From a virus: a stretch of DNA of 22,345 nucleotides. Made by a program: the position numbers and the translations under genes. Positions 5,119-22,221 of the stretch are shown here, in pieces; the first letter of the stretch is position 1; each line of letters starts with the position of its first letter. A model generated the notes under the pieces. It worked only from the letters and a program-made list of their open reading frames with translations, was not told where the DNA came from and did no database searches. The stretch is taken from IMG/VR virus record IMGVR_UViG_3300046462_000140, positions 1 through 22,345 of that record; one strand, written 5' to 3'.

Positions 5119-5370
5119 ATGTCCGACACGTTCACCATCGGCTCCACGACTGATCTGACCACCGACATCAACCTCGCTCCGCAGTGCCGTACGATCCTGA
5201 CGCACCTGAAGCGCGGCAAGACGATCACCAACAACGAGAGCATGCTGGTGTACGGGATCTTCCGCCTGTCGGACGTGATCAACAAACTCCGCAACAAGGG
5301 ATACGACATCGAGACCGAAGTGAAGCGGGACGAAGTCGGCCGGCGCTACTCCAGCTACAAGCTGGCCTAA
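5119..5370 (+). CDS. Small helix-turn-helix (winged-helix-like) protein
   Basis: The 83-aa protein has the layout of the small phage helix-turn-helix family related to Pfam HTH_39: CRTILTHLKRGKTITNNESM, then a recognition-helix-like segment (FRLSDVINKLRNKGYDIETE) and a two-strand wing (RDEVGRRYSSYKL). It occupies the slot between endonuclease I and the primase-helicase where T7 carries its amidase/lysozyme (gene 3.5), which is absent. It probably binds DNA. Its target and whether it regulates transcription are unknown. Confidence 0.7.
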   Translation: MSDTFTIGSTTDLTTDINLAPQCRTILTHLKRGKTITNNESMLVYGIFRLSDVINKLRNKGYDIETEVKRDEVGRRYSSYKLA

Positions 5371-7019
5371 TGGCTTCATGCACTAAGGGGGCGTGCCCAT
5401 GTGGCACGTCCTCTGACGCTTTTGCGACATACGACGACGGCAGCGGGAGCTGGTGCTTCAGCTGCAATGACCCGAAGAACTTCAGCCAAGCAGGTAAGGT
5501 GCGAGAACAAGACGACGACTTCGCAGAGAAGCCGAAGAAGAGCTTCACCCCGATCAAGGGGCACTACGCGGATCTGACGGCTCGCGGGATCACCGAAGAG
5601 ACCTGCAAGAAATGCGACTACCAGATCGGCGAGACTGACAGCGGTAAGCGCGTCCACATCCAGCTGATCAAGGACGACAATGGTCGCCTGATCGACCAGA
5701 AGACCCGCGACAAGGACAAGCAGTTTGCATGGGTGGGTGGCAGCAAGTATGCCGGCATCATCGGCTCATGGTCCTGGCCCGCCAAGGGCAAGTCCGTGGT
5801 GATCACCGAGGGCGAACTGGACCGCATGTCCATCTCCCAGGCCTTCGACAACAAGTGGCCCACTGGCTCACTCCCCAACGGAGCCTCAACGGCCAAGAAG
5901 GCCATCCTGGCGGACTACGAGAAGCTCTGCCGCTTCGACAGCATCATCCTGTGCTTCGACAACGACGCGCCAGGACAGGAGGCCCTCAAGGTCGCCTGTG
6001 AGACGCTGCCGGTCGGCAAGGTCAAGATCATGTCCTTGCCCAAGAAGGACGCCAACGCGGTCCTGATGGACAAGGATCTGGGACCCGCGGTGCTCGTGCG
6101 CGCCTTCTGGGACAGCACGCCCTACAGGCCCGATGGGATCCGTGACGGCTCCGACTTCTCCGTGACGCGGATGAAGCAGAAGCGGAAGCAGGGTGTCACG
6201 CTGCCGTTCCCTAAGCTCAACGAGATGTGGGCAGGGGACCGCGACGGCGAAGTTACGACCATCATCGCCGGCTCCGGTATCGGCAAGAGCACCATCGCGC
6301 GCAACATTGCGTATCACGTTCGCATGGAGCACGGCTTCAAGATCGGCAACATCTTCCTTGAGGAAGACAACGACACGACCGTGAAGGCGTACATCGGCCT
6401 GCACCGCGAGAGGCCTCTGCGCCAGCTGGTGTCTGAGCCTGACGCGTTGACTGACGAGCAATGGGAAGCCTCCCTGGCGGCAGTCGTGCGCGGCAACATG
6501 ATGTTCTACGACCACTTCGGCTCGGTCGAGAGCGAGCGCCTGCTCACCATGATGCGCTACATGGCCGCAAGTGGGTGCCGGCGCATTGTGCTCGATCACA
6601 TCAGCATGTCGGTCTCGGGCCTCGCCAGCAATGACGAGCGCAAGGACATCGACGTTCTCATGACGGGTCTGGGCTCGTTCACCCAGGAGACTGGCGTGGG
6701 CGTGTATGCGGTCTCGCATCTCAAGCGCCAGATGGGCAAGGACTTCAACGAAGGCGCCCCGATCTCCCTCAGGGACATCCGTGGCTCGTCGGCAATCGAG
6801 GGCGTGTCCTTCAACGTCCTGGCGGCCGAGCGCAATCAGCAAGATCCCAAGAAGAAAGCCTTCGCTCAGCTGCGGTCCCTCAAGTGCCGCATCACAGGCG
6901 AGACGGGCGAAGCCGACCTGCTCAAGTGGAACCTTGAGAAGGGCTGTTACGAGCCAGCAAGCGCGGCCGATCTGGCCGAGTTCGATCCACACGATGACAC
7001 AGAGGATGCAGCGTTATGA
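5370..7019 (+). CDS. Bifunctional DNA primase-helicase, T7 gp4 type
   Basis: The 549-aa protein is similar in length to T7 gp4 (566 aa). A Cys-rich zinc-ribbon region at the N-terminus (C4, C9, C11, C29, C32) is followed by the Toprim primase core with Glu147 (ITEGELDRM) and Asp197/Asp199 (CFDNDAPG). The RecA-like helicase domain has Walker A GSGIGKST (Lys306), Walker B VLDHIS (Asp409), AERNQQ, and the KCRITG arginine finger (Arg507). It lays primers and unwinds DNA as a hexameric ring. The C-terminus is acidic (EFDPHDDTEDAAL) but lacks the terminal Phe that T7 uses to contact its polymerase. The first zinc pair reads Cys-Pro-Cys rather than the usual CxxC, so C4 or C9 may be the partner ligand. 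The ATG overlaps the preceding stop. Confidence 0.96.
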   Translation: MASCTKGACPCGTSSDAFATYDDGSGSWCFSCNDPKNFSQAGKVREQDDDFAEKPKKSFTPIKGHYADLTARGITEETCKKCDYQIGETDSGKRVHIQLIKDDNGRLIDQKTRDKDKQFAWVGGSKYAGIIGSWSWPAKGKSVVITEGELDRMSISQAFDNKWPTGSLPNGASTAKKAILADYEKLCRFDSIILCFDNDAPGQEALKVACETLPVGKVKIMSLPKKDANAVLMDKDLGPAVLVRAFWDSTPYRPDGIRDGSDFSVTRMKQKRKQGVTLPFPKLNEMWAGDRDGEVTTIIAGSGIGKSTIARNIAYHVRMEHGFKIGNIFLEEDNDTTVKAYIGLHRERPLRQLVSEPDALTDEQWEASLAAVVRGNMMFYDHFGSVESERLLTMMRYMAASGCRRIVLDHISMSVSGLASNDERKDIDVLMTGLGSFTQETGVGVYAVSHLKRQMGKDFNEGAPISLRDIRGSSAIEGVSFNVLAAERNQQDPKKKAFAQLRSLKCRITGETGEADLLKWNLEKGCYEPASAADLAEFDPHDDTEDAAL

Positions 7020-7225
7020 TGAGGCCTAAGGCGCAGGCTGTAACTTTCTCCGAAGGAGGCAACTGGGTGTCGTTCCCGTGCCGGGAGCGCAACACGCCGC
7101 AGGGCATCCTAGTTCACTCCATCAAGTTCGACGATGGGAGCATCTGGGATGCCTACAACGGCTGGCGCCCCAGCACACTGCCAGAAAAAATGGAACTTGA
7201 CCCGTCGGGCAAAACAGGAGCATGA
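7016..7225 (+). CDS. Small protein of unknown function (69 aa)
   Basis: The ATG at 7016 overlaps the helicase stop (ATGA); a second ATG follows directly. The product is beta-rich (AVTFSEGGNWVSFPCRE, ILVHSIKFDDGSIWDAYNGW) with no known domain. Its 3' end overlaps the start region of the DNA polymerase in another frame, so coupled translation into the polymerase is likely. It might be a short helicase or polymerase accessory protein, but that rests on position only. Confidence 0.55.
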   Translation: MMRPKAQAVTFSEGGNWVSFPCRERNTPQGILVHSIKFDDGSIWDAYNGWRPSTLPEKMELDPSGKTGA

Positions 7226-9221
7226 CGCTATAACTCGACTACTCTACGACACAGAGAGCAACGGTTTCGTTGCGAATGCGACCAAGATCCACTGTGTCGG
7301 AATTATCGACCTGAAGACCGAAGAGGTCATCGGGTTTCGACCACACCAGATCAAAGACGCCCTGCAGATCCTCAGCGAGAGCGAGGAGCGCATCGGGCAC
7401 AACATCCAGAAGCATGACGAGAGGCTGGTCGCCAAGCTCCACGGGGCTCTCCCTGGCGCGCGGATCAGCGACACGTTCGTCATCGCGAGGACGATGTTCC
7501 CCAACGTCAAGCTGACGGACAGTGGTCTGATCGAAAGTGGGAAGCTCACGGAGAAGCTCCGGGGCAAGCACTCGATCAAGGCCTGGGGCATGCGCCTGGG
7601 CGAGCAGAAGGGCGACTACGCGGAGGTGAAGGAAGCCGAGGCGCGCGCCAAGGGCATCACAGACCCGAAGGAAATCGCGGACTACGTGTGGGGCACGTTC
7701 AACGAAGACATGTTCGACTACATGCTTCAGGACTGCCGCACCAATCTGGTCCTGTGGAAGCACCTTAGGCCCGAGGAATACCCTCAGGCACCGCTGGAGC
7801 TTGAGCACCGCATCGCCGAGGTGTGTACGGCTATCGAGGCGGCCGGCGTCCCTTTTGACGAAAGGGCTGCTGGGCAGCTTCAGGCTGACCTCGTGGAAAA
7901 GAAGAGCGGACTGGAGCAGAGGCTTAAGGAGACCTACGGCTACTGGTATCAGCCCATCAGCCCTGACCCGACCAAGAGCCTCTTCGTCCCCAAGCGGGAC
8001 AACAAGAAGCTTGGCTATATCGCAGGTCAAGCGAGCACCAAGCTGAAGCTCGTCGAGTTCAACCCCAAGAGCCGCGACCACATCGCGCGCGTGCTCATCA
8101 ACCAGGGCTGGAAGCCGGAGAAGCTCACTGAGGGCGGCAAGCCCCAGATCGACGAAGAGACCGTAGAGAGCATCGTCGCCCGCTATCCCGAGATGGATGG
8201 ACTGGGTGAGTACATGATGCTGGAGAAGCGACTGTCGCAACTCTGCGGGACAAGCAACAGCCTGATCCAGTCACAACAGACTGACGGGCGCATTCACGGC
8301 GTGATCAACCCAGGCGGCACGGGGACGGGGAGGTGTTCGCACTTCCTGCCGAACCTCGCGCAGGTCCCATCAGCGAAGAAACCCTATGGTACAGAGTTCA
8401 GACGACTGTTCTACGCACCTGTCGGCTGGTCCTTTCTTGGTGCGGACATGCAAGGCCTCGAACTCCGAGGACTGGCTCATTATCTCCACCCGCTGGACGG
8501 AGGGAAATATGCGAGGACCGTGCTCGAAGGTGATCCTCACTGGGCAACCGTTCAAGCAATGGGGCTCGCCGGAGGGGAGCGCGACAAGCATAACCATCTG
8601 CACACCATCGTCCGAGAAGACGGAGCCAAACGGTTCGCCTATGCGGTGATCTACGGCGCCCAGGACAAGATGGCCGGCGACATCGTGTACGAGTGTCTCC
8701 TCAACGCCCAGAGATCCTGTGGTGACGAGGGCGACGCCCTGTACCGCGAGTTCTTCGGCGTAGGTGTCCCTGGGGATCGCAGGATCCGCATGGTCGGCAA
8801 GAAGATCCGTGAGAACTTCTCTCGCGGCATCGACGGCTTCGGGGATCTCCAGTCGAAGATAGCGAAGCAAGTCGAGAAGCTGGGGCGCATCCCTGGGCTC
8901 GACGGCAGGCGCATTCCAACACGCAGCAGCCACAGCGCATTAAATTTCCTTATCCAGTCGAGCGGAGCGATCCTCTGCAAACGATGGGTGGCGGATGCGT
9001 TCGAGGAATGCTGCAGGCGCTACCGATATGGGTGGAACGGGGACTTCGTGTTCGTCCTCTTCATCCACGACGAAATCCAACTATGCGTACGAGAAGGCCT
9101 TGAAGAAGAAATCGGCAACATCATCGTCAAAGCGGCCCAAGCGGCCGGCGAGCCGTACGGCTTCAGGCTCAAGCTCGACAGCGAGTATTCGTTCGGCCGC
9201 ACCTGGGCTGACACTCACTGA
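7149..9221 (+). CDS. Family A DNA polymerase with 3'-5' exonuclease, T7 gp5 type
   Basis: Exonuclease motifs: DTE (Asp at 7248, Glu at 7254), HNIQKHD, and YMLQDC with Asp at 7731. Polymerase motifs: A, GADMQGLELR (Asp at 8445); B, KRFAYAVIYGA (Lys at 8628, Tyr at 8640, equivalent to T7 Tyr526); C, HDE at 9066-9074. It copies the genome with the gp4-type helicase. Between WYQP and FNPKSRDH there are about 34 residues against about 66 in T7, so the thioredoxin-binding loop is roughly halved. The start is uncertain. ATG 7149 has GGGAG (7136-7140) 8 bases upstream but adds a 27-residue extension overlapping the previous gene. Homology begins near 7233, where only a non-standard ATA (7230) with AGGAG (7216-7220) would fit. 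The ATG at 7222 is out of frame and stops after three codons. Confidence 0.95.
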   Translation: MPTTAGAPAHCQKKWNLTRRAKQEHDAITRLLYDTESNGFVANATKIHCVGIIDLKTEEVIGFRPHQIKDALQILSESEERIGHNIQKHDERLVAKLHGALPGARISDTFVIARTMFPNVKLTDSGLIESGKLTEKLRGKHSIKAWGMRLGEQKGDYAEVKEAEARAKGITDPKEIADYVWGTFNEDMFDYMLQDCRTNLVLWKHLRPEEYPQAPLELEHRIAEVCTAIEAAGVPFDERAAGQLQADLVEKKSGLEQRLKETYGYWYQPISPDPTKSLFVPKRDNKKLGYIAGQASTKLKLVEFNPKSRDHIARVLINQGWKPEKLTEGGKPQIDEETVESIVARYPEMDGLGEYMMLEKRLSQLCGTSNSLIQSQQTDGRIHGVINPGGTGTGRCSHFLPNLAQVPSAKKPYGTEFRRLFYAPVGWSFLGADMQGLELRGLAHYLHPLDGGKYARTVLEGDPHWATVQAMGLAGGERDKHNHLHTIVREDGAKRFAYAVIYGAQDKMAGDIVYECLLNAQRSCGDEGDALYREFFGVGVPGDRRIRMVGKKIRENFSRGIDGFGDLQSKIAKQVEKLGRIPGLDGRRIPTRSSHSALNFLIQSSGAILCKRWVADAFEECCRRYRYGWNGDFVFVLFIHDEIQLCVREGLEEEIGNIIVKAAQAAGEPYGFRLKLDSEYSFGRTWADTH

Positions 9222-9429
9222 TCCACTTGAACGTCTCCACAAGGTCTTGCGCGCCATCTGGCGTGAGCAGGTCCGCGTGAAGTCCGACATGGCACGAAAG
9301 GAGGCCGACGTCATCGCGATGGCGGCTTCCCTACAACTCATCACCACGAAGGTCGGGCCGCAGCGCTTCGCCAAGACGTGGCTTATCACCAGCAAGGGCC
9401 TCAACTGGCTCAACGAAAAGGAAGACTAA
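9208..9429 (+). CDS. Small protein with winged-helix-like C-terminus (about 73 aa, start uncertain)
   Basis: The frame is open from inside the polymerase gene, but protein-like sequence begins around TDPLERLHKVLRAIWREQV. No ATG, GTG or TTG lies at the right place. CTG at 9208 is the simplest start; TTG 9247, GTG 9277 or ATG 9289 would remove conserved-looking helix. The C-terminus (QRFAKTWLITSKGLNWLNEK) resembles the last helix and wing of small phage winged-helix proteins. Function is unknown. Confidence 0.55.
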   Translation: MTLTDPLERLHKVLRAIWREQVRVKSDMARKEADVIAMAASLQLITTKVGPQRFAKTWLITSKGLNWLNEKED

Positions 9430-10764: not shown

Positions 10765-10991
10765 CACAGCGCGCCTATGGCGTGTTCGACACCGAGACCG
10801 GCCAGTGGTGGGCAATGTATGCCTACGGCACCATCAGCGCCGCAAAGAACTCGTGGAACGCTGCGAAGGGTCGCTATCGCCGCGAGCTGGGGCCGGACGG
10901 GCGCATGATGCTCGTTAAGAACCCCACGTTCAACGATCAGAGCCGCTTCATCGTGAGGCCGATCAGCTTCACAGCGTTGGACATCGAGTGA
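10761..10991 (+). CDS. Small protein of unknown function (76 aa)
   Basis: The GTG at 10761 overlaps the exonuclease TGA (GTGA). An in-frame GTG at 10749 would add four residues. The product begins MTQRAYGVFDTETGQWWAMY and contains SAAKNSWNAAKGRYRREL, a basic helix. This looks like a small globular alpha/beta protein of phage type. No function can be assigned. Confidence 0.55.
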   Translation: MTQRAYGVFDTETGQWWAMYAYGTISAAKNSWNAAKGRYRRELGPDGRMMLVKNPTFNDQSRFIVRPISFTALDIE

Positions 10992-11206
10992 CCGCGCTCC
11001 TCGTCCAACTCTCAGCCTCCGCGCTGAGCCTGTCGGGCCAATGGTTCTACGGCAACAAGAGTAAGTGGGGCCCGATCTTAGGCCTCAGCGCCCAGGTGCC
11101 ATGGTGGATCATCATGGTCACTCAGGGCCTTTGGGGACTGCTCCCTGTCAACATCTTCACGGGCATCATCCACGCCCGCAATCTCTGGAAATGGCTCAAG
11201 GACTGA
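10988..11206 (+). CDS. Small integral membrane protein, two TM segments (72 aa)
   Basis: The GTG overlaps the upstream TGA (GTGA). Residues about 8-18 are mildly hydrophobic, about 27-45 (ILGLSAQVPWWIIMVTQG) and 48-62 (WGLLPVNIFTGIIHA) are membrane-like, and the end is basic and aromatic (RNLWKWLKD). The NKSKWG-then-W pattern resembles short PnuC-like membrane proteins that occur in several phages, but the similarity is too weak to claim transport. It lies between replication genes and the nucleotide-metabolism gene, so a holin role is less likely. Confidence 0.55.
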   Translation: MTALLVQLSASALSLSGQWFYGNKSKWGPILGLSAQVPWWIIMVTQGLWGLLPVNIFTGIIHARNLWKWLKD

Positions 11207-12228: not shown

Positions 12229-12491
12229 CGCCTATCGAATGGAATGACAGCGAGCCGGGTTTCCCGGATCACCTGCCGCCGGAGAAGCCGAGTAATCCTG
12301 TGGTGGTGGCGCTGACCCGCCAAGAGGCCGAGGAGCGCATCGAGCGCGTCCTTGAGGCCGCGGGTATCTCGCTGGATCTCTTCGCTGTGGAAGGCGGCGT
12401 CGTGGATGTCATTGCGACATTTCCTGACGGCGCCACGTACACCAACAACTTCGCCATCAACATCCTGGCGGAAGGTTACGAGATCCGATGA
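12225..12491 (+). CDS. Protein with AAGI/PDG module (88 aa), paralogue of the upstream gene
   Basis: The ATG overlaps the upstream TGA (ATGA). Residues 1-30 are Pro-rich and probably unstructured. Residues about 35-81 (EERIERVLEAAGISLDLF, then FPDGATYTNNFAINIL) align with the C-terminal part of the preceding protein. It is predicted to be an alpha-beta fold. No known function. Confidence 0.6.
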   Translation: MTPIEWNDSEPGFPDHLPPEKPSNPVVVALTRQEAEERIERVLEAAGISLDLFAVEGGVVDVIATFPDGATYTNNFAINILAEGYEIR

Positions 12492-12916
12492 CCACACTCG
12501 CCTACAGAGACGGCGAGCTGGCCTGCGACAGCCGCGTGACCGCGGGTGACATGATCGTCTCCGACAAGCGCCGCAAGGTTCACCGTCTTCGTGACGGGAG
12601 CATCGTGGCGTGGTCTGGGAGCGTGCAGGACGCCGAGCTGCTTCTGCAGGCGATGCGCAAGACCGCCAAGGTCACGCACCCGAAGCTGCAGGAGATATCT
12701 GCGCTGCACCTAAGGACCGATGGCTCCTTGTGGGAATACGAAGGGGAAGCCTGGGTCAAGCAAGACCCCGGCTACTACGCGACTGGCTCTGGGTCTCCCT
12801 ATGCCTTCGCAGCGATGGACGCAGGCGCCAGCGCCAGGGAAGCCATCCGTATCGCAATCAAGCGTGACGCCAATAGTGGCGGCAAAGTTCAATCACTGAA
12901 ACTGAAGGCCACATGA
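12488..12916 (+). CDS. HslV-like Ntn-hydrolase (proteasome-type peptidase homologue)
   Basis: The 142-aa protein follows the HslV pattern. It starts Met-Thr-Thr, so Met removal would expose a nucleophilic Thr. Asp14 (ELACDSRV) and Lys30 (KRRKVHRL) align with catalytic Asp17 and Lys33 of HslV, counted from the mature Thr. The GSIVAWSGS strand matches the GFAG region, and TGSGSPYAFAAMDAGASARE matches the conserved GSGGNYA region and helix. HslV forms a double hexamer that needs the HslU ATPase; no ATPase partner lies in this window. At 142 residues it is shorter than HslV (about 175). Similar small HslV-like proteins occur in phages with unknown targets. The ATG overlaps the upstream TGA. Confidence 0.8.
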   Translation: MTTLAYRDGELACDSRVTAGDMIVSDKRRKVHRLRDGSIVAWSGSVQDAELLLQAMRKTAKVTHPKLQEISALHLRTDGSLWEYEGEAWVKQDPGYYATGSGSPYAFAAMDAGASAREAIRIAIKRDANSGGKVQSLKLKAT

Positions 12917-15239: not shown

Positions 15240-15614
15240 TTAGGCGTTCGCGCGCGGGTCACCCGGCAGGAACGTAGTGCCCGTCTGAGCAACCGGAGAA
15301 GCCACAGGGCCGAGAGCCGGCACAACGGCCACAGGATCAGCAGCGGGAGCCACGGGTGCGTCCACGGGAGCCGGCGCTACAAAGAGAGCCGCCGAGACCG
15401 CAGCGATACCAGCGGACTCCGCAGGGGTCGTGGTGGCGGCCAGGAGCGTGGCGGTGAGCTGGTCGATGTCAGCCTGGGCGGACACGAGGTCGGCTTTCGC
15501 GGCACCAGCCGCTTCCACGGCGGCATCGCGCTCAGCGGCCACAGAGGCGACCGAGGAGGCCAGGGTGGCGACCTTGGCGACCGCGTCAGTGAGTTTGGAG
15601 AGGTCGAGAGGCAA
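15240..15614 (-). CDS. Ala-rich coiled-coil/disordered protein (124 aa)
   Basis: A TTG start at 15614 follows AAGGA with a 9-base spacer on the minus strand. Residues 1-60 form an Ala-rich heptad helix (DAVAKVATLASSVASVAAER and on). Residues 70-124 are Ala/Pro/Val-rich and likely disordered (VAPAPVDAPVAPAADPV), ending LPGDPRANA. There is no known family. It is last in the late block, after the SGNH spike, and could be a small virion or tail-associated protein. The amino acid composition is very biased. Confidence 0.6.
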   Translation of the reverse strand: MPLDLSKLTDAVAKVATLASSVASVAAERDAAVEAAGAAKADLVSAQADIDQLTATLLAATTTPAESAGIAAVSAALFVAPAPVDAPVAPAADPVAVVPALGPVASPVAQTGTTFLPGDPRANA

Positions 15615-15619
15615 TAGAA

Positions 15620-15658
15620 GGTTTCCTTATTGAAATAGGCGCACTCAATGGCTAATTA
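15620..15658 (-). promoter_or_regulatory. Candidate minus-strand regulatory element upstream of 15614
   Basis: Read on the minus strand, this gap contains AATTAG, 22 bases, then TAAGGA. The only other sizeable minus-strand gap (19661-19696) holds ATTTAG, 21 bases, then TAAGGA. The shared layout may be a phage RNA polymerase promoter, or the TAAGGA may just be a ribosome binding site. Confidence 0.2.
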
Positions 15659-15664
15659 GGTGCC

Positions 15665-15799
15665 ATGGAATACGTTGCATACGCGATAGGCGCCATCATG
15701 GGCGCCCACATTCTTCTCACGGTCTACCGTGCGATCCGCAGGCCATCGAAACAAAAGCTCGATGGCCCCGTTAGCGGGTGGGGTACCCCAGAGGGCTAG
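15665..15799 (+). CDS. Possible plus-strand membrane micro-protein within the minus block (44 aa)
   Basis: This ATG ORF lies in the 187-base gap between two minus-strand genes; no minus-strand frame there codes more than about 15 residues from an ATG. The product has a hydrophobic helix (residues about 4-21, VAYAIGAIMGAHILLTVY) followed directly by a basic cluster (RAIRRPSKQK), the normal positive-inside arrangement of a small membrane protein. AGGTG lies only two bases before the ATG, a poor spacing, and the terminator at 15178-15223 separates it from plus-strand transcription. It may be a real antisense-oriented gene or a chance ORF. Confidence 0.4.
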   Translation: MEYVAYAIGAIMGAHILLTVYRAIRRPSKQKLDGPVSGWGTPEG

Positions 15800-15801
15800 G
15801 G

Positions 15802-17850
15802 CTACTGAGCACCAACGTCCCGCAGGTACGGCAGGATGCAGACGTTCCTGTAGTTTGACATCTGGACCGAAGTCAAAGACGAACCGATATCGCCAAAGGC
15901 AATCCGTATGTTGTTCGAGAACGTCGCAACGTCCGCTAGGAACTGAATGGCCTGAGTAGGCAACGCGGTGGATGCCTGAGTATCCCCAACCAAGAGCGCA
16001 CCGTTCCGGGTAAAATCACGACCGGTCGCACCAGTACGCCGCAACACGAAATGACCATCCGTAGCCGTGTTGGCGTTGTTGGCGCCAAAAGTCGCATCAT
16101 TGATGACCCAGTTGACAACATCGCCCGTGCTTCGCGGATTGGCTAGGGTGCGCGCAGTAGTGGCCACGGCGTTACCGATAATGCGGTTAGACGCACTAGC
16201 AGCAGCACCAACAGTGATCGAGAAGAACGATACGTGCGCCGAGTTCTGGCTGAAGTTTCCGCCAGCCGTTGAAGGCACGAACTGCGTATTAAGTGCCGCG
16301 CTTACGCCGTCACCCGTAAAGCCGCGGTCAGCAAGGAAGTTCGGGGAGCCGACGAGCGCTGCGGTAAACGTGCCGGGGTTCTTCCAGTTGATACGTGCGG
16401 CCTGACTGTCAGCACCTGCAAAGCCGTAGATGGCATCACGGGTCTGCCAAATACCGTAGCCCTTCATACACTTGATGGCGAAGTCAATCGACGCCAAACG
16501 TGCAGCACTAGGAGGCGCTGTGAAGGCCGCAGCAACCGCCTGAGCTTCCGTAGATACAGCACTGAAACCTGCGGGCGCCGTGCCCAAGTAGTTTGCGAAG
16601 ACACCCTTCAGATAGGTGGACGCAACACTCAATCCCGAATTGGCCGGATGGATGCCGTCCGTCGTGTAGGCCGAGTTAGCCCACAAGGCGCCGCTAGAGA
16701 GCACGGATGGGACATCAAGGATTTCGTCGAGGCCGTTTGAGCCGACGTTAGCGACCAGAGCCGTGTTGAGCGTGTCGCGGTTTCCACCGACACCGAAGTT
16801 CGTAACCGGCGTGGTGTTGGTGCTGTCGGTGCGTGCAAGGATCTTCATCTGCGCAACGCGCGAGATGCCGAGCTGCTTTGCGACGCCCCAGATGGCTTGC
16901 AACGCTGTCTGCGTTACGGCAGGGGTGGTACCTGCCGCGATGTCGTTGGTACCGCCTTCCGAAACTAGATGCGTTGCATAAGCCAGCATCTTTAGGCGCC
17001 GCCCCATGTTGGCGCTCGCCGTCGCGACGGTTGACGTGCTGCGAGCCAGATTGACCCACGGGATGTTGCGACCGTTCACGCCCCACATGGAGCGAACCAT
17101 GATACCGCCAGAGGTGCCGTTGACGCCGGAACTGTTGGCGTCGAGCGAGAAGTCAGCAATGCTATCGCCCATGATGGCGATAGAGACCTCGGGAGAGGTG
17201 AACTTGCCGAGCACACCGATAAGCGGCGACTGCAGATTGACTTCCGTCCCGGTAGGAACTCCAGTCGTCATCACCTGAGACGTGCCGTTGTTGTTCTGGA
17301 CACTAGCCTCGCCGGTCGACGGCGTGTAAGCCGATGGCACCGGGATAAACTGGCCAGACGACACCAGCACGCTATCATGAATGAAAATCTGCGTGCCAGC
17401 GGGGATCACGCCAGCGTAGCCGAACGCGGTCGCGGGGATCTGATCTGAGACGACTAGAGCTGCACCATCCGCAACCGAAACCGTATTCGACGCGGCGAAG
17501 GTGACGCGCACGCAATTCGGGTTTGGTGCTGTCGGTATCTCGATAGATGCTTCCAGCGTGTAGGCGTTCCCGAGAGTGTTCTCGGCGCCGGTCGTATCAC
17601 ACCAATAGTTGCAGTAAGCCAGCTTGAGGTAATAAACTGACTGGCCGCCAAGTACGGAGAGTCGGCGTGTTTCGAGGCGAGTTGTCGTTGCGCCGGCAGT
17701 AAAAGAGCCCTTCGCGTTGCGGGCATTGCTGCCGACTATCTGCTCGTAGGGGAGAGCAACCGGGCCGCCCCCGGAAGTCCCGGCGTTAACTCTGCGCCTA
17801 GTCTTACCAATCGACGGAACGCCGGGAACGAAGATGTTCGTCGGCGCCAT
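15802..17850 (-). CDS. Tail spike/fibre with SGNH (GDSL-type) esterase domain
   Basis: The 682-aa protein carries SGNH hydrolase motifs: IMGDSIADF (block I, catalytic Ser230), GGTNDI (block III, Asn302) and DGIHPANSG (block V, Asp398 and His401). The family removes acyl groups from sugars or lipids; in phages it usually deacetylates surface polysaccharide. The N-terminal 200 residues are beta-rich. The C-terminal third (from about 450), with GYGIWQTRDAIYGFAGADSQ and HFVLRRTGATGRDFTRNGAL, looks like a jelly-roll domain. I chose ATG 17850 because it overlaps the upstream stop (TAATG) and gives MAPTNIFVPG; an in-frame start at 17871 adds MRRRELL. It is the second likely receptor-binding protein beside the beta-helix spike. 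Confidence 0.85.
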   Translation of the reverse strand: MAPTNIFVPGVPSIGKTRRRVNAGTSGGGPVALPYEQIVGSNARNAKGSFTAGATTTRLETRRLSVLGGQSVYYLKLAYCNYWCDTTGAENTLGNAYTLEASIEIPTAPNPNCVRVTFAASNTVSVADGAALVVSDQIPATAFGYAGVIPAGTQIFIHDSVLVSSGQFIPVPSAYTPSTGEASVQNNNGTSQVMTTGVPTGTEVNLQSPLIGVLGKFTSPEVSIAIMGDSIADFSLDANSSGVNGTSGGIMVRSMWGVNGRNIPWVNLARSTSTVATASANMGRRLKMLAYATHLVSEGGTNDIAAGTTPAVTQTALQAIWGVAKQLGISRVAQMKILARTDSTNTTPVTNFGVGGNRDTLNTALVANVGSNGLDEILDVPSVLSSGALWANSAYTTDGIHPANSGLSVASTYLKGVFANYLGTAPAGFSAVSTEAQAVAAAFTAPPSAARLASIDFAIKCMKGYGIWQTRDAIYGFAGADSQAARINWKNPGTFTAALVGSPNFLADRGFTGDGVSAALNTQFVPSTAGGNFSQNSAHVSFFSITVGAAASASNRIIGNAVATTARTLANPRSTGDVVNWVINDATFGANNANTATDGHFVLRRTGATGRDFTRNGALLVGDTQASTALPTQAIQFLADVATFSNNIRIAFGDIGSSLTSVQMSNYRNVCILPYLRDVGAQ

Positions 17851-18122
17851 TAGAAGTTCTCGACGGCGCAAACCACCTGAGTGCCCGAGGCAACGATGCC
17901 ATACACAGCGTCAGTGGTCTCAAGGGCAACAGAGGCCCCAAGGACACCGGGGAGCAGCAGGCCGTTGTTGACGGTCACGCCTGAGTTGCCAAGGTAGACC
18001 GCGGTGGTGCCAGTGTTCTCAACGACCACAGTGTCACGGCCGGAGCGCTGGGCGACGATAAGCGTCGCAGTGGTGGCCACAGTCGCCTGAGAGGTGGCGA
18101 AGTTGGCATTCAAATTCTTCAC
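17850..18122 (-). CDS. Small beta-rich protein (90 aa), probable virion protein
   Basis: A GTG start overlaps the stop of the upstream membrane gene (GTGA). The sequence is Thr/Val/Gly-rich and reads as a beta sandwich (RDTVVVENTGTTAVYLGNSG, then LLLPGVLGASVALE and AVYGIVASGTQVVCAV). Small proteins of this look occur near phage fibre or head-decoration genes. It sits between holin-like genes and the SGNH spike and overlaps the latter by one base. The exact role is unknown. Confidence 0.6.
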   Translation of the reverse strand: MKNLNANFATSQATVATTATLIVAQRSGRDTVVVENTGTTAVYLGNSGVTVNNGLLLPGVLGASVALETTDAVYGIVASGTQVVCAVENF

Positions 18123-18280
18123 GAGGATAGGCCCTTGTTCTTAATCTTGTAGTAGATTTGCACGATCAACCACACGCCACCGAGGAGCCCTACGGCCAGC
18201 TGGATGTACGGGTTGACCGTGTTGAGCCACAGGGGCGAAGTCAGAGCTGCGCCTGCGCCTGCGGTAGTTGCGGTTTCCAT
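18119..18280 (-). CDS. Holin-like single-TM protein (53 aa)
   Basis: The ATG at 18280 overlaps the upstream stop by one base, and the TGA overlaps the next GTG. The N-terminus is small and polar (METATTAGAGAALTSPLWLN), followed by one membrane helix (residues about 27-45, LAVGLLGGVWLIVQIYY) and a basic end (KIKNKGLSS). Size, topology and place next to a muramidase fit a holin or pinholin; T7 gp17.5 also ends in a membrane helix with a basic tail. Family similarity is not proven. Confidence 0.55.
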   Translation of the reverse strand: METATTAGAGAALTSPLWLNTVNPYIQLAVGLLGGVWLIVQIYYKIKNKGLSS

Positions 18281-18693
18281 TACGCTCTCTTGATCCATGC
18301 GGAGGCTATTCCTGCGACAACCGTGGACGTACCCGTCAGCGTAAAGACGGAGCCCACGACAATGCGCGCGTATTCAAGCTCGACATCAGGGACCTTGAGT
18401 ACGGTCCAGCCGAGCGCGGGGAAGGTGCTGACGAAGAAGATGGCTGCGTGGTAGAGGAGGACAGGGAAGACCCCGAGGCCCCAAGCAACCCAAAATACCG
18501 GATGATTGAGCATCGACATCGTCACGTCTCGCACGGCGGCGAAGTGTGCTGTCTCTGACTGCACGATGGCAGTCGACACTGTCGCCGAGTTGTTGTTCTC
18601 GACGACGTGCGTGTCTTCCTTCTTATTCAGCCACCCGAAGATCCCTGTGAGGAGCTGCGGGACCGAAGTGAGCAGCGTGATCAGCCAGCTCAT
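18280..18693 (-). CDS. Holin-like membrane protein, GTA-type 3-TM family
   Basis: The 137-aa protein has three hydrophobic segments: residues about 2-22, 66-90 (VFWVAWGLGVFPVLLYHA) and 110-132. A polar, Gln/Glu/Thr-rich stretch after the first helix precedes MSMLNHPVFWVAWGLG. This arrangement, especially the HPxFWxAWGLG segment, resembles the GTA_holin_3TM family that accompanies muramidases in proteobacterial phages and gene transfer agents. It would form lesions in the inner membrane so the endolysin reaches the cell wall. The ATG overlaps the upstream TGA (ATGA). The assignment is by motif memory. Confidence 0.65.
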   Translation of the reverse strand: MSWLITLLTSVPQLLTGIFGWLNKKEDTHVVENNNSATVSTAIVQSETAHFAAVRDVTMSMLNHPVFWVAWGLGVFPVLLYHAAIFFVSTFPALGWTVLKVPDVELEYARIVVGSVFTLTGTSTVVAGIASAWIKRA

Positions 18694-18932
18694 TCCTCGG
18701 TGTCCTTGGGGTCCTCAAGGTGAACCACGGGCTTCATCACGAGCAGCACGAACGGCAGCAGCGAGATGATAAGTTCTACGTAGTTGGAAGGCAGGAAGCG
18801 CGAGAGGATCGGCCTGAGGTCGATGCCCTGGAGCTGGTAGAGCAGCTCGGGAAGCACAGCGACGACGGCCAGACCCAGCGCATGCCAGTGGACCTTCAGT
18901 CGGGCCCAGATGTCTTTTAGTTCACTAAGCAT
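18690..18932 (-). CDS. Small membrane protein of the lysis cassette (80 aa)
   Basis: The ATG at 18932 overlaps the end of the muramidase gene by 8 bases. Two hydrophobic segments (residues about 17-33, HALGLAVVAVLPELLYQ, and 53-68, ELIISLLPFVLLVMKP) are flanked by charged ends. The two-TM layout and location suggest a holin or antiholin partner of the next protein. No specific family is recognised. Confidence 0.55.
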   Translation of the reverse strand: MLSELKDIWARLKVHWHALGLAVVAVLPELLYQLQGIDLRPILSRFLPSNYVELIISLLPFVLLVMKPVVHLEDPKDTEE

Positions 18933-19650
18933 GTTTCAGTTGATCGTTGTACGCATTGGCGCGGTGGTTGGCCTGTACGGCATGCCATATGAGCCAGAGT
19001 GTGCCAGTGATCACGAGGCCCGCAATGACCCAGCCGGCGACCGTGGAGAAGTCACAGCTGTTGATCACTGGAGCCGCGGTGGCACCTGTGGAGGCACCCG
19101 CGGTCGAGTGTGCGATGGCCTTGCCCGCGTTCTTGGTGGCTTCGTTCTTGAGGCCAGGAGCGACGGGTTTACCCGAGGCACCGAGGGCCATACGGACACC
19201 CGTGGCTTCCACGTCGGCCACCCTTCGGCTCCAGCCCTTGCCAAAGCAGGAGAAGGTGCGCAGCGAGTGCAGGAAGGACGAGCGCTTGGCGCAGAAGGCC
19301 TTCACGTAGGCGACTGGGGCGAGCTTCTGGGCGTCGAGGGCCGTGCGGTAGGTGAGGGCGCGCTTGACGCCGGAGTTCACACCGAAGTCGAACTCGACGA
19401 AGTCCACGCCGGCAGGGCGCGCATCGCAGCCGAGCTTGGCCCAGTATTTCTGACGGTAGATGTCGATGGCGACTGCCTTGGGCATTGCCTTGACGTCAGC
19501 CGGGGAAGCATCGGGCTTCCAGTAGAGGCGAGCATCGAAGATGGTGATGCCCCAGTTGGTGGCGCCACCGGGATCACGGGGATCGTTGGTGTAGCCGCCT
19601 TCGTAGGTCAGCGTCTTGCTGATGCTCGCCTCGCGATTTGAGGCGGTCAT
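18925..19650 (-). CDS. Endolysin: GH108-type muramidase with C-terminal membrane segment
   Basis: The 241-aa protein begins with the GH108 (Zliva-type) muramidase motif EGGYTNDPRDPGGATNWGIT, with the likely catalytic Glu at residue 17. Further family features are VEFDFGVNSG (residues 85-94) and, in the peptidoglycan-binding-3-like part, FGKGWSRRV (136-144). It would cut glycan strands of peptidoglycan. There is no N-terminal signal. After a Gly/Ala/Thr-rich linker (about 155-200), a membrane helix (about 203-223, STVAGWVIAGLVITGTLWLI) and a basic tail follow, which is unusual for a soluble phage endolysin. Three small membrane genes follow at once. A TAAGGA lies 13 bases before the ATG, a long spacing. 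Confidence 0.88.
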   Translation of the reverse strand: MTASNREASISKTLTYEGGYTNDPRDPGGATNWGITIFDARLYWKPDASPADVKAMPKAVAIDIYRQKYWAKLGCDARPAGVDFVEFDFGVNSGVKRALTYRTALDAQKLAPVAYVKAFCAKRSSFLHSLRTFSCFGKGWSRRVADVEATGVRMALGASGKPVAPGLKNEATKNAGKAIAHSTAGASTGATAAPVINSCDFSTVAGWVIAGLVITGTLWLIWHAVQANHRANAYNDQLKHA

Positions 19651-19660
19651 TGTTGGTGGT

Positions 19661-19696
19661 GGGTCCTTAGTTTATATCGGAACGGGATCACTAAAT
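19661..19696 (-). promoter_or_regulatory. Candidate minus-strand regulatory element upstream of the endolysin
   Basis: Minus-strand reading gives ATTTAG, 21 bases including GATATAAAC, then TAAGGACCC. The TAAGGA is 13 bases from the endolysin ATG, too far for a good ribosome binding site. ACTAAGGA loosely resembles the initiation part of T3-type promoters. Compare the element at 15620-15658. This is a weak call based on two sites. Confidence 0.22.
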
Positions 19697-19699
19697 CCC
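19684..19699 (-). other. Short hairpin at the end of the beta-helix spike gene
   Basis: GGGAT (19684-19688) and ATCCC (19695-19699) form a 5-bp stem with a 6-base loop that contains the spike stop codon. No U-run follows on the minus strand, so it is not a normal terminator. It could be an RNA-processing or attenuation site, or chance. Confidence 0.3.
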
Positions 19700-21580
19700 A
19701 CGCCACGCGCCGTTCTGTCGAAAGGCCATGCAGCCTGTGCCGCCGCCTGTGAGCGGAGAGCTTCCGGGTGTTCCATCAGTGACGAAAACCTGAGAGCCGT
19801 TGGTAGGAGCCGAAGGCATGGCGGCGAAAGTGTTGCCAGTAACGTCACGAAGCTGCACGTTTGCCGGAGAATTCAGAGTGTACGGGTTAGTCGTACCTGT
19901 GATGATGTTGTCGAACACCTGGATTGGAGCAATAAGGCCCGCGTTAGTAGTCGCGCCTCCAACTCTAATTCCAAACGGATTGTTCGCCCCGGTCTCCCTC
20001 ACGATGTTCCCTGAGACGAGACACTTCGTGGCCGCCTGTACCCATATCAGCACGGACCCTGAGGCAGACGCGCAGCGGAGCCTGTTGTTCTGGATGAGCA
20101 GCTCAGACAGCCACGCCGTAGTTGTCAGGTTCTCAGTAACCAGAATAACGCTCGTCGCAGTGGATGCGCTTGATTGTATTTGGTTGCTGTGGATCGAGAC
20201 CATGCCCGCAGCACTTCCGTCACCACTAGATACCTGCACAGCAGTCGTGCTGAAGTTCTCGAACATGTTGTCGTGGATCGCGATGGACCCAGCTGCGTTG
20301 TTGGAGATGTTTAGAGAGACACTCTTTACGGAACCAAAGCTGGCGTTGTTGTAGATATTGAGGTAACCGACTTCACTGTAGATTGCGGCTAGCGACGAGC
20401 TTAGGGTCGTGTAGAAGTAATTGTCATGCACCGATCCGCCAGCGGCCTCGTTGCCTGAAGTGGTGTATAGATACACGCCAACGTTAACGTAGTTGAAGAA
20501 CGAACATTTGCGCACCTCGGTCCACGCTGGACGCAGACTGACCAGAGCGTTGTAGAGGTTATTGAACAGAACGTTCTCGATAATGCTGTTCGTCGTGTTG
20601 GCCGGTGTCGGGCTCGTGCCCGTCATTGAGATGCCAGAACCGCCCGTATTCGTCGCACTCGATGTGATCTGAAAATCACGGAAGGTGGACGGGAAGTACG
20701 AGCTGACTACAAACGTGTCTTTATTCGCCACGGACTGGATGATCCGCGAGACATTAGCCGCGGCGGCCAAACCGGGACCTCCGCCACTCCCGGCACCGTA
20801 TATGTTGACAGGCGTGGTGCTGGTGATCGAGTTGGACACCTTGTAGCTGCCGACTGGGAGAAACACTGGGGCTCCCGCCGCAGCAGTTACTGCGTTCTGG
20901 ATGGCGGTAGTGTCGTCAGCAACACCATCGCCAACTGCACCGTAGCTCTTGACGTTGAATACGCCAGCAAATCCGTTAGCCAGCACGAAGGCTGTCGTGG
21001 CCAACTGTGTGGTGTTAGTGCCCACGGCAGCGGTCGGGGCCGTAGGTGTCCCTGTGAACGCCGGGGAAGCTAGGGGCGCCTTGGTGGCGTCCTGCGAGTC
21101 CACGTAGGTTACAGGGGCGAGTGCGGCGACCTGGGAGTTGACGTAGGACACAGAGGCCCGCGAGGTGTCGCTCGGGTGGACGTGGTCCTCCCTGGCGTAC
21201 TTGGTCGAGATGCCGACTGCAGCAGCGCTGTCCATCAGAGGGGCCACAGTGGCCGGTGCCGAGCCTACGGCGTTCGTCTGGACCCAAGCCGTGGTGGCGA
21301 TGCGGGTGCTGTTGTCGCCATTGGACGGCGTGGGTGCCGCGGGGATCCCGGTGAACGTCGGGCTGTCGATGTTGGCCTTGCCGGCAGATGAAGTGGCAGC
21401 GCTGGCAGCAGCGAGAGCCGCAGCAGCGGCCGAGGCTGCAGCGGCAAGGGCACTATCAGCGGCCTGTGCCGCGCTTGACGCAGCAGCGGCGGGATCCGCG
21501 TAGAAGGCGGCGGGGGCCGAGGGGGCCACAACGGCCCCGGTGTTAGTGGGGCCGTCAGTGAAGAACGAGGAGTCTACCAT
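19691..21580 (-). CDS. Tail spike with pectate-lyase-type beta-helix
   Basis: The 629-aa protein is modular. The N-terminus is MVDSSFFTDGPTNTG, then an Ala-rich coiled stalk (residues about 30-66). Two tail-fibre repeats follow: 73-101 (SPTFTGIPAAPTPSNGDNST and on to ATTAWVQT) and 172-201 (SPAFTGTPTAPTAAVGTNTT and on to ATTAFVLA). Between them lies a metal-binding-like HVHPSDTSR (HVH at 133-135). From residue 208 (FNVKSYGAVGDGVADDTTAI) a pectate-lyase-3-like right-handed beta-helix runs to about 590. A short C-terminal domain ends FRQNGAWRGI. Such spikes bind and often cleave host polysaccharide. No T7 gp17-type N-terminal domain is seen, so attachment to the tail must differ from T7. The ATG overlaps the upstream stop by 7 bases. 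Confidence 0.88.
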   Translation of the reverse strand: MVDSSFFTDGPTNTGAVVAPSAPAAFYADPAAAASSAAQAADSALAAAASAAAAALAAASAATSSAGKANIDSPTFTGIPAAPTPSNGDNSTRIATTAWVQTNAVGSAPATVAPLMDSAAAVGISTKYAREDHVHPSDTSRASVSYVNSQVAALAPVTYVDSQDATKAPLASPAFTGTPTAPTAAVGTNTTQLATTAFVLANGFAGVFNVKSYGAVGDGVADDTTAIQNAVTAAAGAPVFLPVGSYKVSNSITSTTPVNIYGAGSGGGPGLAAAANVSRIIQSVANKDTFVVSSYFPSTFRDFQITSSATNTGGSGISMTGTSPTPANTTNSIIENVLFNNLYNALVSLRPAWTEVRKCSFFNYVNVGVYLYTTSGNEAAGGSVHDNYFYTTLSSSLAAIYSEVGYLNIYNNASFGSVKSVSLNISNNAAGSIAIHDNMFENFSTTAVQVSSGDGSAAGMVSIHSNQIQSSASTATSVILVTENLTTTAWLSELLIQNNRLRCASASGSVLIWVQAATKCLVSGNIVRETGANNPFGIRVGGATTNAGLIAPIQVFDNIITGTTNPYTLNSPANVQLRDVTGNTFAAMPSAPTNGSQVFVTDGTPGSSPLTGGGTGCMAFRQNGAWRGI

Positions 21581-22221
21581 GAGCCATCCGTGTCGAGTTG
21601 TAGGGCCGGAGCGACGACGGCATCAGCCGCCAGCTCGTCGGCATCAGCCATGCGCTGCAGGCTCTGTGTGATTTGGGCGTAGGTGCCCTCGGCCTCCGTG
21701 CGGTTCTCGACGTCCTTGAGGTAGCTGTAGGCCGCGGCGAGCGCACCGTAGAGCACGGCGTCCCACGCGACCTTGAGGGCCGTGTTGGTGTCCGTGTCGG
21801 CGTTCAGCGCGGCGAACTCGGCGTAGTAATAGATGAGGACCTGAGAGCCCGCGGCCGGCGAGGGCCCGAGGATCCAACTGCCTCCCTGGCGCACGTAGAC
21901 CCGCGGTGTTGCTCCGGGCATCTGCGAGGCCGTGATGACCTGCGTGAGGGCGGTCTTGCGCAACTCGTATTCGAGGATGCCGTCCGCGTCGGTGTCGACC
22001 ATGATGGCGATCAACTCAAGCATATCCGAGGGGATCGCGAGCTTCGTGTAGCCATCGGGAATGGTGTACAGCACCTGCTTCTCTTGGAAAGGCAGTCTGA
22101 GTTCGCGCTGCAAGCGCATGATGCTTTGATTGATGAAGAGGGCCACCATCGCGTCGTTCTTGTTCACGACGTTATTGTTGACCATAGCCTTGAACTGGGC
22201 CTTTAATTCGCCGAGTGTCAC
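21574..22221 (-). CDS. Adaptor / head-tail connector-like structural protein (215 aa)
   Basis: A GTG start at 22221 follows AAAGG with an 8-base spacer. The protein has an N-terminal helical region (TLGELKAQFKAMVNNNVVNK, ALFINQSIMRLQRELRLPFQ), a beta core (VLYTIPDGYTKLAIPSDMLE, RVYVRQGGSWILGPSPAAGS, VLIYYYAEFA) and C-terminal helices rich in Ala and Tyr. This is the layout of the adaptor (SU10-like) family that joins portal and tail in many podoviruses. It does not look like T7 gp11. The assignment is by overall pattern, with no decisive motif. Confidence 0.65.
   Translation of the reverse strand: MTLGELKAQFKAMVNNNVVNKNDAMVALFINQSIMRLQRELRLPFQEKQVLYTIPDGYTKLAIPSDMLELIAIMVDTDADGILEYELRKTALTQVITASQMPGATPRVYVRQGGSWILGPSPAAGSQVLIYYYAEFAALNADTDTNTALKVAWDAVLYGALAAAYSYLKDVENRTEAEGTYAQITQSLQRMADADELAADAVVAPALQLDTDGSW

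Follow-up and report, generated by a model that had tools for sequence, protein, structure and literature searches.

A probable AUA start on a T7-type DNA polymerase gene and near-cognate start codons at the same site in related phages

Where does translation of a T7-type DNA polymerase begin when its reading frame has no ordinary start codon at the point where homology to other polymerases begins? This question is raised by a virus record of 22,345 bases, analysed here over its whole length and called the window, which carries an Autographiviridae-like early region (Table 1). Its polymerase gene resembles T7 gene 5 in encoding a family A enzyme behind the primase-helicase, with the exonuclease Asp a few residues from the start and a C-terminal His; however, most relatives outside the clade described below, isolates included, have ATG at −4 to −6 before that Asp, whereas the window has ATA. 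Codons such as ATA, CTG, ATC and ATT are normally almost ignored by ribosomes as starts. We argue that the gene is very probably translated from AUA at 7230, positioned by an AGGAG sequence, in a clade that reuses near-cognate starts at this one site, most likely through translational coupling.

The early genes of the window encode a T7-type RNA polymerase, a gp2.5-like SSB, endonuclease I, a primase-helicase, a family A DNA polymerase and a 5′-exonuclease. The DNA polymerase matches Pfam DNA_pol_A (E 1e-29) and the T7 gp5 chains of known structures (E 1e-95, both domains aligned), carries the exonuclease D-x-E motif as DTE at residues 7–9 counted from ATA, ends in His and has the primase-helicase and 5′-exonuclease as neighbours. 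A 20–35-residue WGDEW...KGYP segment (window ~8000–8060) is missing from the polymerases of the window, L009 and L012 and present in other relatives. Elsewhere, a gene at 12488–12916 that is conserved in the relatives matches the proteasome subunit family PF00227 (E 1.5e-10), and minus strand genes at 15240–22221 encode a GDSL-lipase domain protein, a glycosyl hydrolase 108 lysis enzyme and an SU10-type adaptor; these are convergent to the early genes, an arrangement that differs from that of T7. The relatives of the window include contigs from IMG/VR as well as a region of the Bradyrhizobium sp. BR 10289 genome (L065), where an 81% identical polymerase lies within a 278-kb Bradyrhizobium contig, which suggests a T7-like prophage and Bradyrhizobium as a likely host group. 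The phages of the near-cognate-start clade are T7-like soil phages.

Table 1. Features around the polymerase gene of the window
Feature	Position	Strand	Remarks
Primase-helicase, T7-type	5370..7019	+	Pfam Helic-prim_T7_N, DnaB_C, Toprim; PHROG_239
69-aa ORF between helicase and polymerase, window lineage only	7016..7225	+	TGA ends 5 nt before ATA 7230; matches no known protein family in Pfam or PHROG
ATG, rejected alternative start	7149..7151	+	GGGAG, spacer 8; extension unconserved
3′ module TTGACCCGTCGGGCAAAACAGGAGCAT	7197..7223	+	Behind different inserted genes in five lineages (window, L003/L034, L017/L054, L014, L063); carries the Shine-Dalgarno (SD) sequence
SD sequence AGGAG	7216..7220	+	9-nt spacer to ATA 7230; −6.6 kcal/mol with anti-SD
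Out-of-frame ORF ATG ACG CTA TAA, three codons	7222..7233	+	Stop overlaps ATA (ATAA); not conserved; possible coupling leader
ATA, probable DNA polymerase start	7230..7232	+	Relatives' junctions, conservation, SD, folding
T7-type family A DNA polymerase, 663 codons from ATA, ends WADTH-stop	7230..9221	+	Pfam DNA_pol_A, PHROG_17
gp5.7-like ORF, +1 frame of polymerase	9220..9429	+	PHROG_1334; own start codon missing in most relatives

The original prediction held that the polymerase lacks an ordinary start where homology begins, and reading the frame directly bore this out together with all of its coordinates. From 7230 the frame reads ATA ACT CGA CTA CTC TAC GAC, with GAC at 7248, and in-frame ATG, GTG and TTG are absent from 7200 to 7493. 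The first downstream ATG (7494) is 82 codons past the exonuclease Asp, and we rejected it as a start since it would remove the conserved first 80+ residues. Upstream, the frame is open from 7113, and the only ordinary in-frame starts between the upstream stop and Arg-Leu-Leu-Tyr-Asp-Thr-Glu are ATG 7134, ATG 7149 and TTG 7197. ATG 7149 was correctly described as having a GGGAG (7136–7140) and as adding 27 residues encoded over the ORF at 7016–7225; the other two, missing from the earlier list, have no SD sequence, and TTG 7197 would add 11 residues. The ATG at 7222 is indeed out of frame and opens only Met-Thr-Leu-TAA. ATA 7230 itself differs from an ordinary start by a single mismatch and has, as first noted, a correctly spaced AGGAG. 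The alignment with T7 gp5 starts at the third gp5 residue, and T7 Met1 falls on the Arg codon at 7236, two codons past ATA.

The relatives narrow the choice. The homologous helicase-polymerase junction was extracted from all fetched relatives, about 60 related loci with 35 distinct polymerase junctions, and the polymerase is nearly invariant in these from Arg-Leu-Leu-x-Asp-Thr-Glu on. Among 33 distinct junctions, column −4 (relative to the exonuclease Asp) contains seven codons that specify only Arg or Lys and column −2 five codons that all specify Leu. Columns −10 to −7 show no conservation, and the codons further upstream are unrelated. By these columns purifying selection sets in at the Arg two codons after ATA, which means that translation has to begin no later than 7233.

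In the relatives the start place is codon −6 or −5 relative to the Asp. Ordinary codons at this site are ATG in L004, L039, L048 and others, GTG in L047 and L009, and TTG in L011, immediately behind an in-frame TAG. Sixteen of the 35 distinct junctions are non-canonical there, with ATA in the window, L010, L034, L063 and L014 (grouped with L022 and L053), ATC in L017, ATT in L015, CTG in L013 and L042, and CTG as second codon in L012, L016, L018, L051, L060 and L061. ATA, ATC, ATT or CTG is thus present in 15 of the 16, against about 10% expected when junctions are weighted equally and their kinship is ignored. Eight of the 35 have no ATG, GTG or TTG at all between the in-frame stop and the conserved N-terminus; the stop lies upstream by 81 nt in L010 (ATA), 33 nt in L014/L022/L053 (ATA), 27 nt in L042 (CTG), 21 nt in L012 (ATT-CTG), 24 nt in L016 (CTG), 33 nt in L051 (ATT-CTG) and 69 nt in L061 (CTG), and the eighth is L086. 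The upstream ordinary codons of the window are unconserved. L086 reads GTT-CTA at the site and so lacks both ordinary and single-mismatch codons there; its polymerase frame has a further break close to the C-terminus. Decay, error or a still weaker start may be the cause. In a distant marine locus (L152) the frame reads TAA CCG CTG AGA TGG ATC TTC GAC, with the stop two codons upstream, and its CTG is the only plausible start.

The clearest control for the window junction is L010, whose polymerase is 91% identical to that of the window over the N-terminal 200 residues and 95% over the best segment. It shares the identical ATAACTCGACTACTCTACGAC with the window despite a different upstream gene, and its bases equal those of the window from GCTATAACTCG onward. 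The upstream gene in L010 is the helicase itself, which ends ...GCA TCG CTA TAA, so that helicase stop and polymerase start share ATAA. The helicase-polymerase junction as a whole is an insertion hot spot, at which unrelated genes lie behind a common 3′ end, TTGACCCGTCGGGCAAMACAGGAGCAT, that supplies the polymerase SD sequence (window 7197–7223; L034, L054, L014, L063). In Rhizobium phage RHph_I20 (L153, 208–346) the annotation places the polymerase start 31 codons ahead of the homology, over another gene, possibly in error.

The signals needed for initiation are found around the near-cognate codons. SD pairing upstream of them has a median of −6.6 kcal/mol against a background of −2.9 and is not weaker than in canonical members, and folding around the start is −7.2 against a background of −14.1. 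In nearly all non-canonical junctions the upstream stop either overlaps the start by 4 nt (CTGA, ATAA) or ends 5–6 nt before it, and canonical members have the same geometry with ATGA and GTGA. The window combines both forms, the 69-aa ORF ending just before ATA and the mini-ORF opened by ATG 7222 overlapping it. A stop that overlaps the start or lies a few nucleotides from it is typical of translationally coupled gene pairs, and termination-reinitiation coupling has this geometry (PMC6728339). Initiation at the near-cognate site by a coupling mechanism of this kind is supported by the strength of the SD pairing, the weak local folding and the overlapping upstream stop. AUA 7230 would be read as fMet, presumably by the initiator tRNA, and placed by the AGGAG; ribosomes would finish the upstream frame, be held near the site by the SD sequence on termination and then restart inefficiently at AUA.

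Non-canonical starts are restricted to the polymerase among the core genes compared. In the same loci, none of about 102 distinct junctions of the SSB, endonuclease I, HTH protein, primase-helicase and 5′-exonuclease genes has one, all being ATG, GTG or TTG. The difference from the 16 of 35 at the polymerase gives a Fisher p of 1e-11, and the strict count of 8 of 35 with no ordinary start at all gives 9e-6, both ignoring the kinship of junctions. On a tree of 38 polymerases there are at least seven changes between the ordinary and near-cognate states, and a single inherited event therefore does not account for the pattern; the best reading is that the clade has switched repeatedly between the two kinds of polymerase start. 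Among the other genes of these phages, the 5′-exonuclease (window 9985 and relatives) starts unusually often with TTG or GTG, making it another replication gene with weak starts. A small gene of unknown function in L036, homologous to window 10988–11206, begins with CTG in place of the GTG or ATG of the other copies, with no ordinary start back to an in-frame stop 21 nt upstream.

Four explanations were originally offered for the window junction, and the relatives strongly favour the rare AUA start. A real N-terminal extension over the ORF at 7016–7225, from ATG 7149 (or ATG 7134 or TTG 7197), is encouraged by the open frame and by SD pairing at ATG 7149 (−6.5 kcal/mol) as good as that at ATA, which is a point against an AUA start. 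Yet the extension from ATG 7149 is found only in two near-identical loci, and the other relatives have no such extension over 7149–7229; its reading frame is not conserved. Between 7016 and 7230 the window and L029 differ at two positions; 7062 is upstream of the extension, and 7168, inside it, is silent in the ORF from 7016 and changes Ala to Asp in the extension frame. L014 has a one-base length difference between the SD sequence and ATA that puts any upstream extension out of frame, and T7 Met1 aligns within the conserved region. ATG 7134 and TTG 7197 (pairing of −0.9 kcal/mol at the latter) are likewise unconserved and in the wrong frame in L014. We thus reject an extended polymerase as very improbable.

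If ribosomes shifted frame within the three-codon leader or the upstream gene to make a fused polymerase, this would fit the many relatives in which the 4-nt overlap sets the polymerase at −1 relative to the upstream gene. However, the upstream genes are unrelated between relatives, ATG 7222 is unconserved, and no common slippery motif was seen by eye at the junctions. The first base of the upstream stop is at start −7 in window-type and start +1 in L010-type junctions; as no constant shift fits this varying upstream frame, frameshifting into the polymerase is very unlikely. The other role proposed for Met-Thr-Leu-stop, as a leader that couples to the gene, is possible, because ATAA/CTGA overlaps are seen again in relatives where the upstream frame is a real gene. 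An error is conceivable in a metagenomic contig, where an indel at 7222–7232 could hide an ATG, but the junction is identical in three assemblies (the window; L002/L029; L024/L059), and independent lineages have the same ATA, in L010 behind a different upstream gene. A sequencing or assembly artefact is therefore a most unlikely cause of the missing ATG.

The AUA start at 7230 leaves the matter of what its weakness means. Initiation at CUG in a standard E. coli reporter is 0.86% of that at AUG (PMC11497404); weak initiation is expected of AUA as well. Since IF3 in addition represses such starts (PMC5472188), polymerase yield would be low and could come under IF3 control, and it is plausible that the near-cognate start limits polymerase synthesis. 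Coupling would partly compensate for the low yield. An essential polymerase might need more than a weak start gives, which would count against AUA, as does the GTT-CTA of L086. Because the start-site residue is mostly hydrophobic, protein constraint in extended forms could account for part of the codon choice. A further possibility accepts the AUA start and competes only with dosage control: under coupling, codon identity may be unimportant and near-cognates may simply drift in without regulatory meaning. We give this a substantial chance, somewhat below even; the at least seven switches and the overlapping stops at most junctions agree with it. Against it, near-cognate starts are absent from the neighbouring core genes of these phages, and many of the non-canonical starts are one silent upstream change from an ordinary codon (TAA to TGA would make ATG, TTC to TTT would make TTG) and have nonetheless not changed. 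Such retention could reflect either selection for low dosage, that is for scarce polymerase, or tolerance under coupling.

The 3′ end of the gene has an unusual feature of its own. The window polymerase ends WADTH-TGA (stop at 9219–9221), and directly behind it, in the +1 frame, lies a T7 gp5.7 homologue without a start codon. The relatives' gp5.7-like copies that have no ATG of their own are always in the +1 frame, at spacings of 1, 7, 10, 13, 16, 19, 25, 28, 34 and 61 nt, whereas those with an ATG of their own are found in other frames as well. Elsewhere among the relatives, PD-(D/E)XK, GIY-YIG (T5orf172/MUG113), endonuclease VII or HNH domains occupy the same +1 frame right after the polymerase stop. 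One cultured isolate, RHph_I20, also shows the arrangement. This frame is open for at least 50 codons at 64 of 89 distinct polymerase ends, and 20 of those 64 have no nearby ordinary start, against counts of 0–8 at the ends of other genes; the T7 annotation carries a possible 5.5-5.7 fusion. The simplest reading is a candidate programmed +1 frameshift at the Thr-His-stop. Dual coding at this end was rejected, variation at four-fold sites being 0.325 in the last 40 codons and 0.409 elsewhere, no clear reduction. More tentatively, and with the chances rather against it, an IF3-gated near-cognate start may keep the polymerase scarce while the +1 frameshift appends gp5.7 or nuclease domains to a fraction of it.

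To our knowledge, a few genes use near-cognate starts, namely infC, sigR and RepFIB rep, and we found no report of such starts on phage DNA polymerases among the open-access papers searched. The closest tested parallel is RepFIB rep, a replication protein gene with a good ribosome binding site and a weak near-cognate start, CTG, interpreted as giving just-enough expression and misannotated in most records (PMC11983097). It differs in being a plasmid initiator from a single plasmid family whose start was tested by mutation, whereas the phage polymerase start is read from sequence. The infC (AUU) and Streptomyces sigR (GTC) starts are repressed by IF3 and make expression dependent on initiation factor 3 (PMC5472188), as we infer for the polymerase, but these are chromosomal regulators. 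Coupling at ATGA and TGATG (PMC6728339, PMC2268962) is alike in its stop-start overlap and in having the SD sequence inside the upstream gene, but the overlapping codon in the phage polymerases is CTG or ATA, not ATG. The locus is thus best read as a known mechanism in a new setting, clade-wide near-cognate starts on one replication gene, with the window using AUA.

A whole phage clade would then have near-cognate starts on its replicative polymerase, at one site and with repeated switching, while its core replication neighbours have ordinary ones. In the start-less members the next ordinary codon lies 10–82 codons past the exonuclease Asp, and gene callers limited to ATG, GTG and TTG will produce false polymerase extensions or lose the proofreading motif. 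Natural comparisons within the clade could show whether start-codon strength sets the dosage of the polymerase and whether phage replication is gated by the IF3 of the host; if the reading of the 3′ end is also true, the polymerase gene would be regulated by unusual decoding at both ends.
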